Shown here one piece after another: positions 3,264 to 36,698 of a DNA stretch of 61,384 nucleotides (its first letter is position 1; each line of letters begins with the position of its first letter). The notes under the pieces are model-generated. The model was given only the letters and a program-made list of their open reading frames with translations. It searched no databases and was not told the origin of the DNA. Position numbers and translations under genes: made by a program. The DNA is taken from assembly GCA_013426015.1 (NCBI GenBank), contig CP058998.1:858758-920141 (forward strand), in the 5' to 3' direction. The stretch is from Candidatus Fermentimicrarchaeum limneticum. GTDB taxonomy: Archaea; Micrarchaeota; Micrarchaeia; Burarchaeales; Fermentimicrarchaeaceae.

Positions 3264-3385
3264 GCCAAGGTAGCTCAGCCTGGTTAGAGCACCAGACTCA
3301 TAAGCTCAGCTTGATGAGTGATGAGCGCTTACGCGCAATGATGTGGGTAATCTGGGAGTCGCGAGTTCAAATCTCGCCCTTGGCA
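3264..3385 (+). tRNA. trnM: tRNA-Met (CAT) with 47-nt intron
   Basis: The acceptor stem GCCAAGG (3264-3270) pairs with CCTTGGC (3378-3384), with discriminator A at 3385. The D arm is GCTC...GAGC and the T arm GCGAG-TTCAAAT-CTCGC. The anticodon stem CCAGA/TCTGG carries the loop CTCATAA with anticodon CAT at 3299-3301. An intron of about 47 nt (3303-3349) interrupts the loop after position 37, the standard archaeal site. The anticodon stem lacks the three G-C pairs of initiator tRNA, so this is elongator Met; a modified-C tRNA-Ile2 is a less likely alternative. EndA at 16105-17265 would splice it. No CCA is encoded. Confidence 0.93.
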
Positions 3386-32279: not shown

Positions 32280-33800
32280 ATGTATTCAGAAAAACTGATG
32301 AAGCTTTTCAGGAAGCCGCACAACTTCGGCAAGATAAAGAATGCCGATGCAGTCGGTAAAGTTGGCAATCCTGTGTGTGTTCTCCCAGAGACAATGGTGT
32401 TTTGTAACGATAATATTAGACCTATAACTGAGATTGGTGTTAGGGAAAAAGTCCTAAGCCATGATGGTGGATATCATGAGGTTAAAGAAACATTCAGGAG
32501 AAGATACTCTGGAGAGATTATAATACTAAAAAATAAGCTAGGAACTACAGCTCTAACGCCAGATCATCATGTATTGGCGATTAAAAGACCATCTGGACAT
32601 CGTTTCAATTATACAAGAAATAAAAGGAATCTGGTTTCATCTTGGTGCCATGCCTCTGAGTTGAAAAGGCGGGATATTCTCTTGTATCCTATTTTAAAAG
32701 AAACTGCTGATATAAAAGAAATCCCACTACAAATAGAAAGACTAAAGTTCGATTTTAAAAGCAAGAAGCTACCGAAAAAGATAAAGGTTGACAAAGATTT
32801 TCTTCTGCTTGCTGGGTACTTCATTGCAGAGGGGAGTACGAAATGCGAAAAATGTAGAACTTTTCTAACTTTCACATTCGGGAGTAAAGAGAAGAGTTAT
32901 GTTGAAGATGTGAAAAGACTGGTTAAAAATATATTCGGGTTAGATGTGAAAATTGTCTACAAGCATGAACATAATAGCGTAGATGTTATTGTATATTCTG
33001 CTGGTTTAGCTCGGTTCTTCAGAAGTTTATTTGGAGATAAGGTGGAAAATAAACACATACCGCATTTTATGATGCTGCTACCCACACAAAAACAAAAGAA
33101 TTTGATTCTGGGGTTATGGCGCGGGGATGGATACATCGGAATTGCGGGTGGAAAATGGCCGCGCGCAGGTTACTCAACTGTTTCACATCAATTGGTGCAA
33201 CAAATCAAAATACTGCTTCTTAGACAAAAGATATCGCCTTCGTTTTATGAGGATAAGGAAAGAGTCAAAGATGGCGTACACCACCAAAAAAGTTATAGAG
33301 TACACGTATCAGAAAGGCGGTCTATGGTCCGGTTGGCCAATATACTTGGGGTTAGATTAAAATTTGTGAAAAACGTTTCAGAAAAAACATGGTTTGATTC
33401 TAATTTTTTGTATGCGCCAGTAACTAAAAAAGAAAGTCTTCCCTACGAAGGTTTTGTTAATAATTTAGGAATCGACAAGCCGAACTCGTATATTTCAGAA
33501 TCAGCGACATTGCATAATTGCGGGGATGTGATGTATCTTTATTTGAAGATAAAAGATGACGTGATAAAAGACGTGAAGTTCGAGACGTTCGGCTGCGCTG
33601 CCGCAATAGGGACGAGCAGCATCATCACTGACCTGATTAAGGGCAAGAAGATTGACGATGCATTGAAAATAAGCAAGGACGACATCGCCAAGGAGCTGGG
33701 AGGGTTGCCTCCGATAAAGATGCACTGCTCTGTGCTCGCTACAGAGGCGCTGAAGAAGGCGGTTGAGGAGTACAGGATAAAGCAGAGAAGAAAGAAGTAG
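32280..33800 (+). CDS. iscU: Fe-S scaffold IscU interrupted by a LAGLIDADG intein
   Basis: Precursor of 506 aa. Exteins are residues 1-32 (ending GKVGNPV) and 414-506 (starting CGDVMYLYLKI). Joined, they give a 125-residue IscU with the usual three ligand Cys (CGD, FGCAAA, MHCSV). Residues 33-413 are an intein. The insertion lies exactly before the catalytic Cys of the CGD motif, so no functional scaffold forms until splicing occurs. It follows iscS without a gap. Confidence 0.95.
   Translation: MYSEKLMKLFRKPHNFGKIKNADAVGKVGNPVCVLPETMVFCNDNIRPITEIGVREKVLSHDGGYHEVKETFRRRYSGEIIILKNKLGTTALTPDHHVLAIKRPSGHRFNYTRNKRNLVSSWCHASELKRRDILLYPILKETADIKEIPLQIERLKFDFKSKKLPKKIKVDKDFLLLAGYFIAEGSTKCEKCRTFLTFTFGSKEKSYVEDVKRLVKNIFGLDVKIVYKHEHNSVDVIVYSAGLARFFRSLFGDKVENKHIPHFMMLLPTQKQKNLILGLWRGDGYIGIAGGKWPRAGYSTVSHQLVQQIKILLLRQKISPSFYEDKERVKDGVHHQKSYRVHVSERRSMVRLANILGVRLKFVKNVSEKTWFDSNFLYAPVTKKESLPYEGFVNNLGIDKPNSYISESATLHNCGDVMYLYLKIKDDVIKDVKFETFGCAAAIGTSSIITDLIKGKKIDDALKISKDDIAKELGGLPPIKMHCSVLATEALKKAVEEYRIKQRRKK
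32376..33518 (+). mobile_element. IscU intein with homing-endonuclease domain
   Basis: A 381-residue intein. It begins with Cys (CVLPETMV), has block B TALTPDHHVLAI and ends LHN followed by extein Cys. The two LAGLIDADG helices read LLLAGYFIAEGS and LILGLWRGDGYIG, so homing activity is possible. The DNA is clearly richer in A+T than the flanking gene and uses AGA rather than AGG for Arg, which suggests recent acquisition. The last splicing block (NNLGIDKPNSYISESATLHN) is divergent but keeps the terminal His-Asn. Confidence 0.93.
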
Positions 33801-33870
33801 ACAACAGCCAACCAGTCGAATTCTATTAAGTTTAAATATTCGAAATGAGCAATTTTAGGTGGTGGTGACA

Positions 33871-34893
33871 TTGGCTTCTGAATTCGACAAGATCATTGCA
33901 AGGCTGGATAAAGAAAAGACGACAGGGGCATTCGAGCATGCTGCCGATGAACTCATAAGCTTCATCACTGACGATTCGACAGTGGGGCGCGTATCCGATA
34001 CCTTCAGAAAGAGCGAGTCGGTCTGGGTGAGATACGGCATCCTGAAAGCCTATGAGATGATGGACCATGCAGGCTCCACCGCCTACAGGACGCTCTCGCA
34101 GCATTGCAGGGAAGTGATTCTCGAGGACCTTCTAGTCGGGCTTGCGGACAAGGACAAGGGCATCCGCATGACAAGCTCCGATATTCTTTCAAACGGCGAG
34201 GAGCTTATGAAAGGGGCAAAGCCAGAACTTGGCGAGAGAATAGTCAAGGGGCTCATAGCGAATTCCGACAGAGCGAGGGAGAGCAGCGTGGTTGAAGCTC
34301 TGGGAGTGGCTGACTACTCCGGGATATCGCAGGAAACCAAGAAGCAGGCAGCTGACTTCCTGGTAAAAGCGGCCGTTGATGGGAGCAGGAACGCAGCAAG
34401 AGGTGTTGACAGGATAGGGGACGAGGCTTCCAAGGACATAGTCAGAAAGCACTGGCTTCCGAAGCTTGACAGCAGAAAGGAGAAGGAGGTTGGGAGGGCA
34501 TTGGGAATATTCGAATTCATCGAATGTAAGGAAGCGGCCAACAAAGTTGACGGGCTCGTGAAAAAGGGGAAGAGGGATTCTGACTACATAGACGTCCTGG
34601 TAAGATCCGGAGATGAGAGGCACGAGGACAGCATGATCAAGCTGATGGAAGGGCGTGACTGGATGGGAGGGCGTTACTGCATAGCGGACATGGAAATCCT
34701 TGGCAAAAAAGGCTGGAAGAAATCCTCGGAGATCCTCAACAGAATTGTAAAAAACAAAAAAGACTATGACGAGCAGGAGATTGAGGCTGCACGCAAGGCA
34801 AGCAAGGAGATTGAGGGAAGGATGACTGTGTCGTCAAAGCCAGCTGAGAAGAAGCTTGAAGAGGCAATGAAAAGGAAGAAGGTGCCTGCGTAG
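33871..34893 (+). CDS. Helical (HEAT-like) repeat protein
   Basis: Protein of about 340 residues made almost wholly of helices about 35 residues apart (for example VWVRYGILKAYEMMD, SSVVEALGVADYSG and GGRYCIADMEILGKKGWKK), which suggests ARM/HEAT-like repeats and a protein-binding role. No catalytic motif. The start is uncertain: TTG 33871 follows GGTGGTG, and GTG codons just upstream are possible. Its TATA box and leader (33831-33870) are nearly repeated at 34939-34977 before a short ORF. Confidence 0.65.
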   Translation: MASEFDKIIARLDKEKTTGAFEHAADELISFITDDSTVGRVSDTFRKSESVWVRYGILKAYEMMDHAGSTAYRTLSQHCREVILEDLLVGLADKDKGIRMTSSDILSNGEELMKGAKPELGERIVKGLIANSDRARESSVVEALGVADYSGISQETKKQAADFLVKAAVDGSRNAARGVDRIGDEASKDIVRKHWLPKLDSRKEKEVGRALGIFEFIECKEAANKVDGLVKKGKRDSDYIDVLVRSGDERHEDSMIKLMEGRDWMGGRYCIADMEILGKKGWKKSSEILNRIVKNKKDYDEQEIEAARKASKEIEGRMTVSSKPAEKKLEEAMKRKKVPA

Positions 34894-34977
34894 GATTTCG
34901 AGAAACCTGCTTAAAATTCGATTTTCAGTTGCCGTATCTTTAAATAGTAAAAATGAGCAATTTAAGTGGTGGCGTCT

Positions 34978-35085
34978 ATGGCAGTAACGGTAATGGGCAA
35001 GCCGAGAATGAGCATAGAACTAATGTTAAGCGGCTTGAGTCACTATATTATAAGCGCTTATAATAAACTGTTTAGCGCTAAATAA
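34978..35085 (+). CDS. Possible 35-residue small protein
   Basis: A short ORF (MAVTVMGKPRMSIELMLSGL, then 15 more residues) with TATA box TTTAAATA at 34939-34946 and GTGGTGG before the ATG, both resembling the set-up of the upstream gene. Its second half is encoded by the palindromes at 35026-35082, so it could be chance. A second overlapping frame from ATG 34953 is open for 36 codons but would lie upstream of the expected transcription start. Real coding is unproven. Confidence 0.3.
   Translation: MAVTVMGKPRMSIELMLSGLSHYIISAYNKLFSAK
35026..35082. repeat. Palindrome cluster upstream of the TBP gene
   Basis: TTAAGCGGCTTGA (35026-35038) is followed by a perfect 20-base palindrome with core TTATAAGCGCTTATAA (35046-35065) and a perfect 12-base palindrome TTTAGCGCTAAA (35071-35082). 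The first two elements recur in the same order and spacing after the TBP gene. Confidence 0.85.
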
Positions 35086-35117
35086 AGCATGTTGAGAGGA
35101 ACAGGCTAGGTGTTTCA

Positions 35118-35438
35118 GTGACAAAGAAACTCACAATTGACTCAGCGTTCAAGATAGAGAACATAGTAGCTTCAGCCAATTTGGGAGTGGAGCTTGACCT
35201 TTATGTTCTTGCCCAGAAAATCAGGAACATAGAGTATGAGCCAGAGCAGTTTCCAGGTGCAATACTCAAGCTGAAAGACCCAAAGGCATCTCTTCTGCTC
35301 TTCAAGAACGGCAAGGTAATATGCACAGGCTGCAAAAACGAGAGAGAAGTGAAGTATGCCTTAGAGCGAGCAATAAAGCTACTGGCTCCCCATGCAAATC
35401 CCTTCCCAGTTTACAAACAAAAGATCAAACCAGCTTGA
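35118..35438 (+). CDS. tbp: Half-length TATA-binding protein (single TBP repeat)
   Basis: A 106-residue protein matching one TBP repeat: FKIENIVASANLGVELDL at 11-28, YEPEQFPGAILKLKDPKASL at 40-59, LLFKNGKVICTG at 60-71 and ALERAIKLL at 81-89. Archaeal TBP normally has two such repeats in about 180 aa. Here the frame stops after the first and no second repeat is seen downstream. The DNA-kinking Phe residues (Phe45, Phe62) are kept, so a homodimer could form a symmetric saddle. It starts with GTG. It may be the main TBP or a paralogue; the rest of the genome would decide. Confidence 0.88.
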   Translation: MTKKLTIDSAFKIENIVASANLGVELDLYVLAQKIRNIEYEPEQFPGAILKLKDPKASLLLFKNGKVICTGCKNEREVKYALERAIKLLAPHANPFPVYKQKIKPA

Positions 35439-35446
35439 GATTGACT

Positions 35447-35490
35447 TAAGCGGCTTAAATCATGAGGATATTGTAAGCGCTTACGATATA
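35447..35490. repeat. Palindrome pair downstream of the TBP gene
   Basis: TTAAGC-G-GCTTAA (35447-35459) is followed by a 22-base palindrome with core GTAAGCGCTTAC (35469-35490, one mismatched pair). Element order and the 21-22 base offset match the cluster at 35026-35065 on the other side of the TBP gene. Confidence 0.85.
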
Positions 35491-35612
35491 ACTCCGAAGG
35501 TGGGAAATCAGCAGAACAAGTAGGCAAGCTCTTTCATCCTGTTAAAAAAAGAGGCAATTTCTTAACACGCAAATTTCCAGTGATTCAAATATTAGGTATA
35601 ATATACGCTCAG

Positions 35613-35920
35613 TAAATCCGCCCGGTTTACTCCTGAACCGGCAAAGAAGCAGGCAGAGTCAGAATCGGCATCACCTAGACCGGTCAAGACCAGAAAAAGC
35701 AGGCTTCTCAGACGTTAAACTCTCGGCTTCTTGCATAAAACACTGAGAATAAGGTGATTTACCTCGGAGAGGCAAGACAGGTAAATCCGCTCCTGATGCC
35801 TCTCCGACGGCAACCGCTCAGAAAAACGAAGGTGATTTACCGGATTTATCAGGCGTATTTTATACCTCTGCGAAAACACCGCTTTTACCCGATTTACCGG
35901 TGATTTACATGCGATTTACG
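35613..35920. repeat. GATTTAC repeat cluster and hairpins in a 486-base non-coding gap
   Basis: No gene is visible between 35439 and 35924. The heptamer GATTTAC (or its complement) occurs seven times: 35613, 35757, 35782, 35835, 35892, 35903 and 35914. The last three are exactly 11 bases apart. An 11-base perfect inverted repeat, TCGGAGAGGCA (35765-35775) and TGCCTCTCCGA (35798-35808), encloses one copy, and CCGGTT/AACCGG (35623-35642) forms a smaller one. It may be a protein-binding array or part of a non-coding RNA. Confidence 0.7.
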
Positions 35921-35924
35921 CAAT

Positions 35925-36698
35925 CTATACCTTCTCATACCTCACTCCCAGAACTTCCAGGAAGTTGAGCACCTTCTCCCTCTGCTCCTTGTTCATTCCC
36001 TTCCAGTCAAGCAGAGCAAGCTCAGTCTTCTCCTTCGACCTCTCCACCCCCTGCCTGAAGCCTTCCAGCTCAATCCCGTCGATGTAATACTTCGGCAGCA
36101 TGTGCCCCACGGCGAACTCCTTCTCAAGAATTACTTTTGTGAAAGAGGGAGCGTAGTGCCCTCCCCCGATGCCGAAAGCAGCGGGAAATGTCTCGTTTGA
36201 GGAGAGCATCTTCATCACTGCGGAGGCAACTATCTCGCCTGCACGGGCATTCTGCCACTCCTTCTCGGTGCTGCCTATCTCCACAAACAGGGCAGGCGCC
36301 TTTGTGAGAGGCCCGTGGTGGTCAACTTCGGCACAGACCTGCCAGCCCAAGTCATTCAAAGAATTCAGTTCTCTCAAAACAACTTTCAATTTGCTGGGAA
36401 AGCACGGACAAACCTGTTTTGGCTTGCCTCCGAGCTCGGCAGCGCCCCAGTTGCCCGGCGTGTGAGCTGTTAAGCAGGGCTTGCCTGTTTCACTTCTATG
36501 TTTGCTTATGAAAACGAAGAAGTCCGTCTCCTTGTCGTAAAGATGTTCTGCATCGACAATTTTCGTTTCAACTTGGATGAGCTCCAGTTCGTCTTTCATC
36601 CATTTATCTTCTTTCTTTTCAAAATTGAACAGTTTTATGAGCTTGTCCGCTATGTTCTTGCCTGCAATATCCTGCGAGGAAAAAACAAGGGTCGGCAT
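35925..36698 (-). CDS. dtdA: D-aminoacyl-tRNA deacylase, archaeal DtdA
   Basis: Archaeal/plant-type D-aminoacyl-tRNA deacylase (DTD2), removing D-amino acids from tRNA. Conserved segments are FVFISKHRSETGKPCLTAHT near residue 61, HTPGNWG near 79, EVDHHGPLTKAPALFVEIGS near 123 and GIGGGHYAPSFT near 175. The length (257 aa) is normal. It stands alone, its 3' end touching the repeat-rich gap. Confidence 0.93.
   Translation of the reverse strand: MPTLVFSSQDIAGKNIADKLIKLFNFEKKEDKWMKDELELIQVETKIVDAEHLYDKETDFFVFISKHRSETGKPCLTAHTPGNWGAAELGGKPKQVCPCFPSKLKVVLRELNSLNDLGWQVCAEVDHHGPLTKAPALFVEIGSTEKEWQNARAGEIVASAVMKMLSSNETFPAAFGIGGGHYAPSFTKVILEKEFAVGHMLPKYYIDGIELEGFRQGVERSKEKTELALLDWKGMNKEQREKVLNFLEVLGVRYEKV

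Follow-up and report, generated by a model that had tools for sequence, protein, structure and literature searches.

A preliminary description of the window, the 61,384-nucleotide stretch of archaeal DNA analysed here, pointed to seven exact copies of the heptamer GATTTAC/GTAAATC gathered in about 310 bases of a non-coding gap, and proposed that they are iteron-like sites for a multimeric protein, such as a replication or nucleoid factor, or part of a structured RNA. The question raised by this locus is what these heptamers belong to.

The heptamer cluster and its locus

All seven copies were counted again between 35612 and 35919, the first heptamer beginning one base further to the left (35612) than described. 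The gap between the flanking ORFs likewise measures 486 bases (35439-35924), the last three heptamers are spaced by 11 and 11 bases, and a perfect 11-base inverted repeat encloses the copy at 35781, as had been claimed (Table 1). The heptamer is neither common nor enriched elsewhere in the window, whose total of eight copies compares with an expectation of 5.2 +/- 2.6. A 310-base stretch would hold 0.04 copies at the window's rate, and no other 7-mer clusters six or more times in 310 bases anywhere in the whole 61 kb. The cluster was thereby confirmed as a genuine observation.

The gap separates a TBP-like gene from the 3' end of the gene for DtdA, a D-aminoacyl-tRNA deacylase. In three relatives (loci L116, L117 and L118) the NifU/IscU-like gene directly adjoins the DtdA gene, and the 2.1-kb segment found between them in the window, which carries an ORF with no Pfam match (33859-34893), the TBP-like gene and the element containing the heptamers, is absent.

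Several other features were observed in and around this segment. The TBP-like protein is only 106 aa long, with one TBP repeat; a paralogue (L030:3381-3683) located near 5S rRNA and L21e seems to be the resident copy, because its DNA region is matched in genomes G002 and G004. Direct repeats TTAAGCGGCTTRARTCA...TAAGCGCTTA, with a palindrome, lie on either side of the TBP-like gene (35026-35065 and 35446-35488), and short matches similar to them are present in other Micrarchaeota genomes. A promoter- or leader-like block, TTTAAATANNNAAAATGAGCAATTTTAGGTGGTG, found upstream of many accessory genes in the genus (also at L093, L094, L095, L092, L119 and L030), occurs in the window at 33831-33865, upstream of the ORF at 33859, and at 34939-34982, farther upstream of the TBP-like gene. 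The NifU/IscU-like gene (32280-33800) contains a large insertion reading like an intein, with a related insertion in G004 and none in G001 and G003. At a second DtdA locus (L119, G001:C14), a fragment resembling the DtdA 3' end is repeated next to an inserted gene, a pattern that would fit the 3' end of DtdA serving as an integration target. Elsewhere in the window, an archaeal RNase P RNA (2053-2293) scores just above the family cut-off and a tRNA gene (3264-3385) has a length that suggests an intron.

Table 1. Coordinates of the heptamers, the element and its surroundings (window positions unless a contig is named). R1, model of the element end; R2, model of the core.
Feature	Position	Strand or orientation	Remarks
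Segment missing in three relatives	33801..35924	.	between NifU/IscU-like and DtdA genes
TBP-like gene	35118-35438	+	Pfam TBP; left of gap
Left end (LE), GGTATAATATAC...CAGTAAATC, terminal inverted-repeat arm	35594..35620	-	R1 match, 25.1 bits
Variable LE-core stretch	35621..35733	+	indels between copies; purine-rich; short hairpins
Structured core, 134 nt, ends with right end	35734..35867	+	alignment A8; R2 match E=6.5e-30
Helix 1 5' arm, AGGTGATTTAC	35752..35762	+	heptamer copy at 35756
Helix 2 5' arm, TCGGAGAGGCA, interleaved with helix 1	35764..35774	+	perfect inverted repeat I3
Helix 1 3' arm, GTAAATCCGCT	35781..35791	+	heptamer copy at 35781
Helix 2 3' arm, TGCCTCTCCGA	35797..35807	+	perfect inverted repeat I3
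Right end (RE), GATTTACCGGATTTATCAGGCGTATTTTATACC, other terminal inverted repeat	35822..35867	+	R1 match, 41.1 bits, E=2.3e-11
Tail sites CTTTTAC, GATTTAC x3, same orientation	35882..35919	+	RE offsets 14, 23, 34, 45; 9-11 bp apart
Exact GATTTAC/GTAAATC starts	35612(-), 35756(+), 35781(-), 35834(+), 35891(+), 35902(+), 35913(+)
DtdA gene	35925-36698	-	Pfam tRNA_deacylase; 3' end faces gap
Array 1	G000:C1 612-614 kb	same orientation	three left-end sites
Array 2	G001:C56	same orientation	two left-end sites after full element

Structure and distribution of the element

A DNA search revealed related sequence at other places in this genome as well as in congeners (carrying the label Candidatus Micrarchaeota in the pattern search), the left and right ends of these stretches being inverted copies of GATTTACCGGATTTACTNGANGTATATTATACC. 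In the window the element is non-coding and covers about 275 nt (35594-35867), with a tail to about 35924, giving about 275-330 nt overall. Its ends, GGTATAATATAC...GTAAATC on the left and GATTTACC...GTATTTTATACC on the right, are imperfect inverted repeats, the 27-nt left arm being 81% complementary to 35841-35867. The core aligned over 134 columns in 11 copies with pairwise identities down to about 40-50%, the only gaps being one internal base in one copy and the missing last base of another; indel events per pair of copies amounted to 3.9 in the stretch between left end and core versus 0.25 in the core. Some copies contain open frames of 81-86 aa, and GAT TTA CCN could be read as repeated Asp-Leu-Pro; protein coding was rejected because the copies show no codon periodicity (mismatch rates by codon position 0.407/0.411/0.406) and several contain stops. 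In its length below 600 bp, its lack of coding capacity and its terminal inverted repeats, the element corresponds to a MITE.

The distribution was established with a sequence-only model of the element end (R1) and a covariance model of the 134-nt core (R2). R1 gave inverted end pairs 274-309 bp apart at eight places, plus extra single copies, and R2 gave 11 core copies; of the five genomes in the genus, four contained them, with four loci in the window's genome and seven in three congeners. No copies were returned by R2 from the other 297 genomes of the phylum, under stricter filters that can lose weak matches. The element is restricted to one Micrarchaeota genus, and the 1.2-Mb genome from which the window derives holds four full copies and three left-end copies at separate places. 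In an exact-pattern scan of 85k genomes, the window's own being excluded, matches came from congeners and from four bacteria, the latter looking like chance, and the scan revealed no longer element in which such ends enclose a transposase; plasmid, phage and viral collections gave no match. An Rfam covariance search returned no family and only a chance miRNA match (E=9.7), and SRP RNA, considered because part of the element resembled SRP helix 8, was rejected, there being no Rfam match and the SRP RNA of the genome lying at C1:740748. The compared genomes are metagenome assemblies, among which G001 has 7% contamination and two DtdA copies.

Folding of the core and phasing of the tail

Folding of the core is conserved across the copies. 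Standard pairs occupied 83% of the cells of helices 1 and 2 in the 11 copies, against 37-45% in slid controls, and double changes were found in 31 cells compared with 13.1 +/- 2.8 in shuffles (0/500). Specifically, compensatory changes affected 7 of 11 pairs in helix 1 (87.6% of cells paired) and 5 of 11 pairs in helix 2 (78.5% of cells paired) over the same 11 copies. The first eight copies gave the same covariation result, the remaining three having been found after the helices were defined, with a model that included only the first of the two helices. Together the helices could make an H-type pseudoknot, or they could exist as two alternative hairpins, and the 3' arm of helix 1 has an alternative pairing with the right-end heptamer at 35834-35840 (columns 48-54/101-107). 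Because helix 1 includes heptamers, a protein-binding motif whose copies change in concert could account for some of its apparent covariation. Helix 2, which has no heptamer, shows independent covariation, weaker in the distal half. The heptamers within one copy tend to change together, as GATTTAC, GTTTTAC, GATTTTC or GTTTCAC, which would be expected of a co-evolving binding motif or of a pairing arm. Compensatory changes in both helices thus back the folding part of the earlier structured-RNA proposal.

The tail of the window copy and those of G000c, G003a, G001a and G003b carry heptamer-like sites, some of them degenerate, at RE offsets 14, 23/24, 33/34 and 44/45, and the divergent copy G002a shows a comparable phased series. 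Four copies have four or five such sites in a row, 9-11 bp apart, an arrangement reached in at most 0.1% of Markov controls. That the 11-bp spacing might be peculiar to the window was rejected, the comparison of offsets showing it to be conserved. Helical phasing, which had been attributed to the cluster as a whole, holds for the tail (six copies, 9-11 bp) and not for the cluster as one array, since most heptamers are inverted-repeat arms in a larger element and only the last few are phased direct repeats. The phased tail sites are most simply predicted to be protein-binding sites.

A candidate mobile element

The GATTTAC cluster belongs to one copy of what is most likely a non-autonomous, MITE-like mobile element, or recombinase site, with folded, multi-site ends, which would depend on an enzyme supplied in trans; we assign this reading a probability of about 0.5. 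Mobility is suggested by the 11 copies, which lie in four congeners among flanks that are for the most part unrelated, a dispersal like that of MITEs, by the inverted ends, 274-309 bp apart in eight copies, by the position of the window copy in a segment absent from relatives, and by two different copies, 49% identical and with different left genes, that share one right flank, as at an insertion hotspot. The nearly gap-free core beside an indel-rich stretch, the covarying helices, the co-changing heptamers, the conserved phasing of the tail and the lack of codon periodicity are also consistent with a mobile element.

Other observations argue against mobility. With four copies in the genome, the element has a low copy number, no target-site duplication is visible around the copies, no clean empty site lacking just the element is available for alignment, and a larger transposase-bearing relative was not found. 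At the neighbouring genes used in the search for empty sites (NifU-DtdA, DUF424-like, RNase H, L21e), the one absence demonstrated was that of the entire 2.1-kb segment at the window locus. The near-absence of core indels points to a lasting function and so argues against a decaying MITE. Across the five genomes of the genus, PF00589 recombinases were detected in G000, G002 and G003 and none in G001 and G004. The lack of a target duplication and of a cognate enzyme among the results leaves room for a mobile structured RNA or an attC-like site, both weighed below. In G000:C1:341443-414983, a set of matches that includes tyrosine recombinases is repeated three times at intervals of exactly 25,989 bp, which suggests a 26-kb tandem triplication, whether an integrated concatemer of plasmid or viral origin or a product of misassembly.

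If the element is mobile, the heptamers would serve as repeated binding sites for a candidate transposase or recombinase supplied in trans, with two heptamers near each end and four or five in the tail at approximately one helical turn. The core between them, folding as one strand, forms the two interleaved helices, with inverted heptamers and a TCGGAG/CTCCGA pair as arms, and the putative enzyme would recognise the heptamers together with the palindromic GTATA-N-TATAC ends and move the element, sometimes with neighbouring genes.

Alternative explanations

The same compensatory changes in two interleaved helices and the same gap-free core would be found in a family of genes for a structured non-coding RNA, spread through the genome by duplication or by being carried along, in which the core is a pseudoknot or a two-state switch and the TATA-like left end (GGTATAATATA) its promoter. 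The + strand folds better than shuffles with a z of -3.9 (-2.3 for the - strand), and wobble-type cells favour the + strand without reaching significance (G-U 9 versus A-C 4), whereas mismatches in the terminal helix (C-A and A-C cells) lean the opposite way. An RNA gene would have no need of inverted ends, left-end copies after ORFs, phased tail repeats or a changing neighbourhood, and no Rfam family was matched; we regard this explanation as rather unlikely.

Left-end-type copies without core or right end bear on a further explanation. In two arrays (Table 1) they follow successive ORFs in one orientation, as attC sites do, with a cargo of rhomboid protease, 8xMP, trypsin-like protease and SEC-C protein; genes near the arrays include those for SEC-C, rhomboid, 8xMP, trypsin-like, HNH and HEPN proteins. 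These arrays, a structure conserved more than the sequence and a tyrosine recombinase about 6.5 kb from the G000 array would suit an integron-like cassette recombination site with new sequences; the left-end copies would then function as cassette sites, and the full element would be a compound site or the primary one. However, clear cassette-type sites number only five, the sites end in GTATATTATACC or a close variant with no attC boxes RYYYAAC/GTTRRRY (R''/R') at this conserved boundary as read by eye, and G001 holds an array yet has no detectable tyrosine recombinase. Such a site is improbable, and owing to the missing boxes and to the G001 result membership of the integrons is not claimed.

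Iterons at an origin of replication, or one site for a nucleoid protein, as first proposed, might account for the roughly helically phased direct repeat of the tail but are highly improbable for an element dispersed over many loci, with four full and three left-end copies at separate places in a 1.2-Mb genome, no copy at the same locus in relatives and no special turn of GC skew at the heptamer cluster.

Relation to known systems and significance

Similar to MITEs, the element is short, non-coding and dispersed, with terminal and internal inverted repeats; it differs from them in the target-site duplication and parent transposase not found, in its low copy number, in a core under strong length and structure constraint, and in a tail whose phased direct sites lie beyond the right inverted repeat. 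Transposon ends of the Tn7/Mu type are asymmetric and carry several copies of one short transposase-binding motif. The element resembles these in its asymmetric ends and repeated short motif, a likeness with no homology shown, and differs in being only 275-330 nt long, in having no transposition genes and in using a heptamer as its motif. Pseudoknots also occur in RNAs of mobile elements, for example in the omega RNAs of IS605/IS200-type elements. A non-coding, pseudoknot-like core within a mobile-like element is shared with these, whereas no TnpB/IscB was seen beside the element, which has terminal inverted repeats and no Rfam match. Integron attC sites, including those of archaeal integrons, are conserved in structure, recur behind accessory ORFs and often have no integrase close by (PMC9668308). 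The element is like them in these respects and unlike them in its termini (GTATATTATACC), its lack of an R-box consensus, its length of 100-300 nt and its interleaved rather than nested stems.

It is conceivable, at long odds, that the element represents a new gene-mobility system of DPANN archaea, in which a single-strand recombination site, folded as a pseudoknot and carrying phased heptamers for recombinase binding, would build accessory-gene arrays in Micrarchaeota without known integron sites. The Micrarchaeota have small genomes, known mostly from metagenomes, and their mobile elements and gene capture are little understood. The occurrence of the element beside accessory genes and in cassette-like arrays offers a concrete handle on gene gain in these symbiont-like archaea and, if the core acts as RNA, the element would constitute a structured RNA family not described before.
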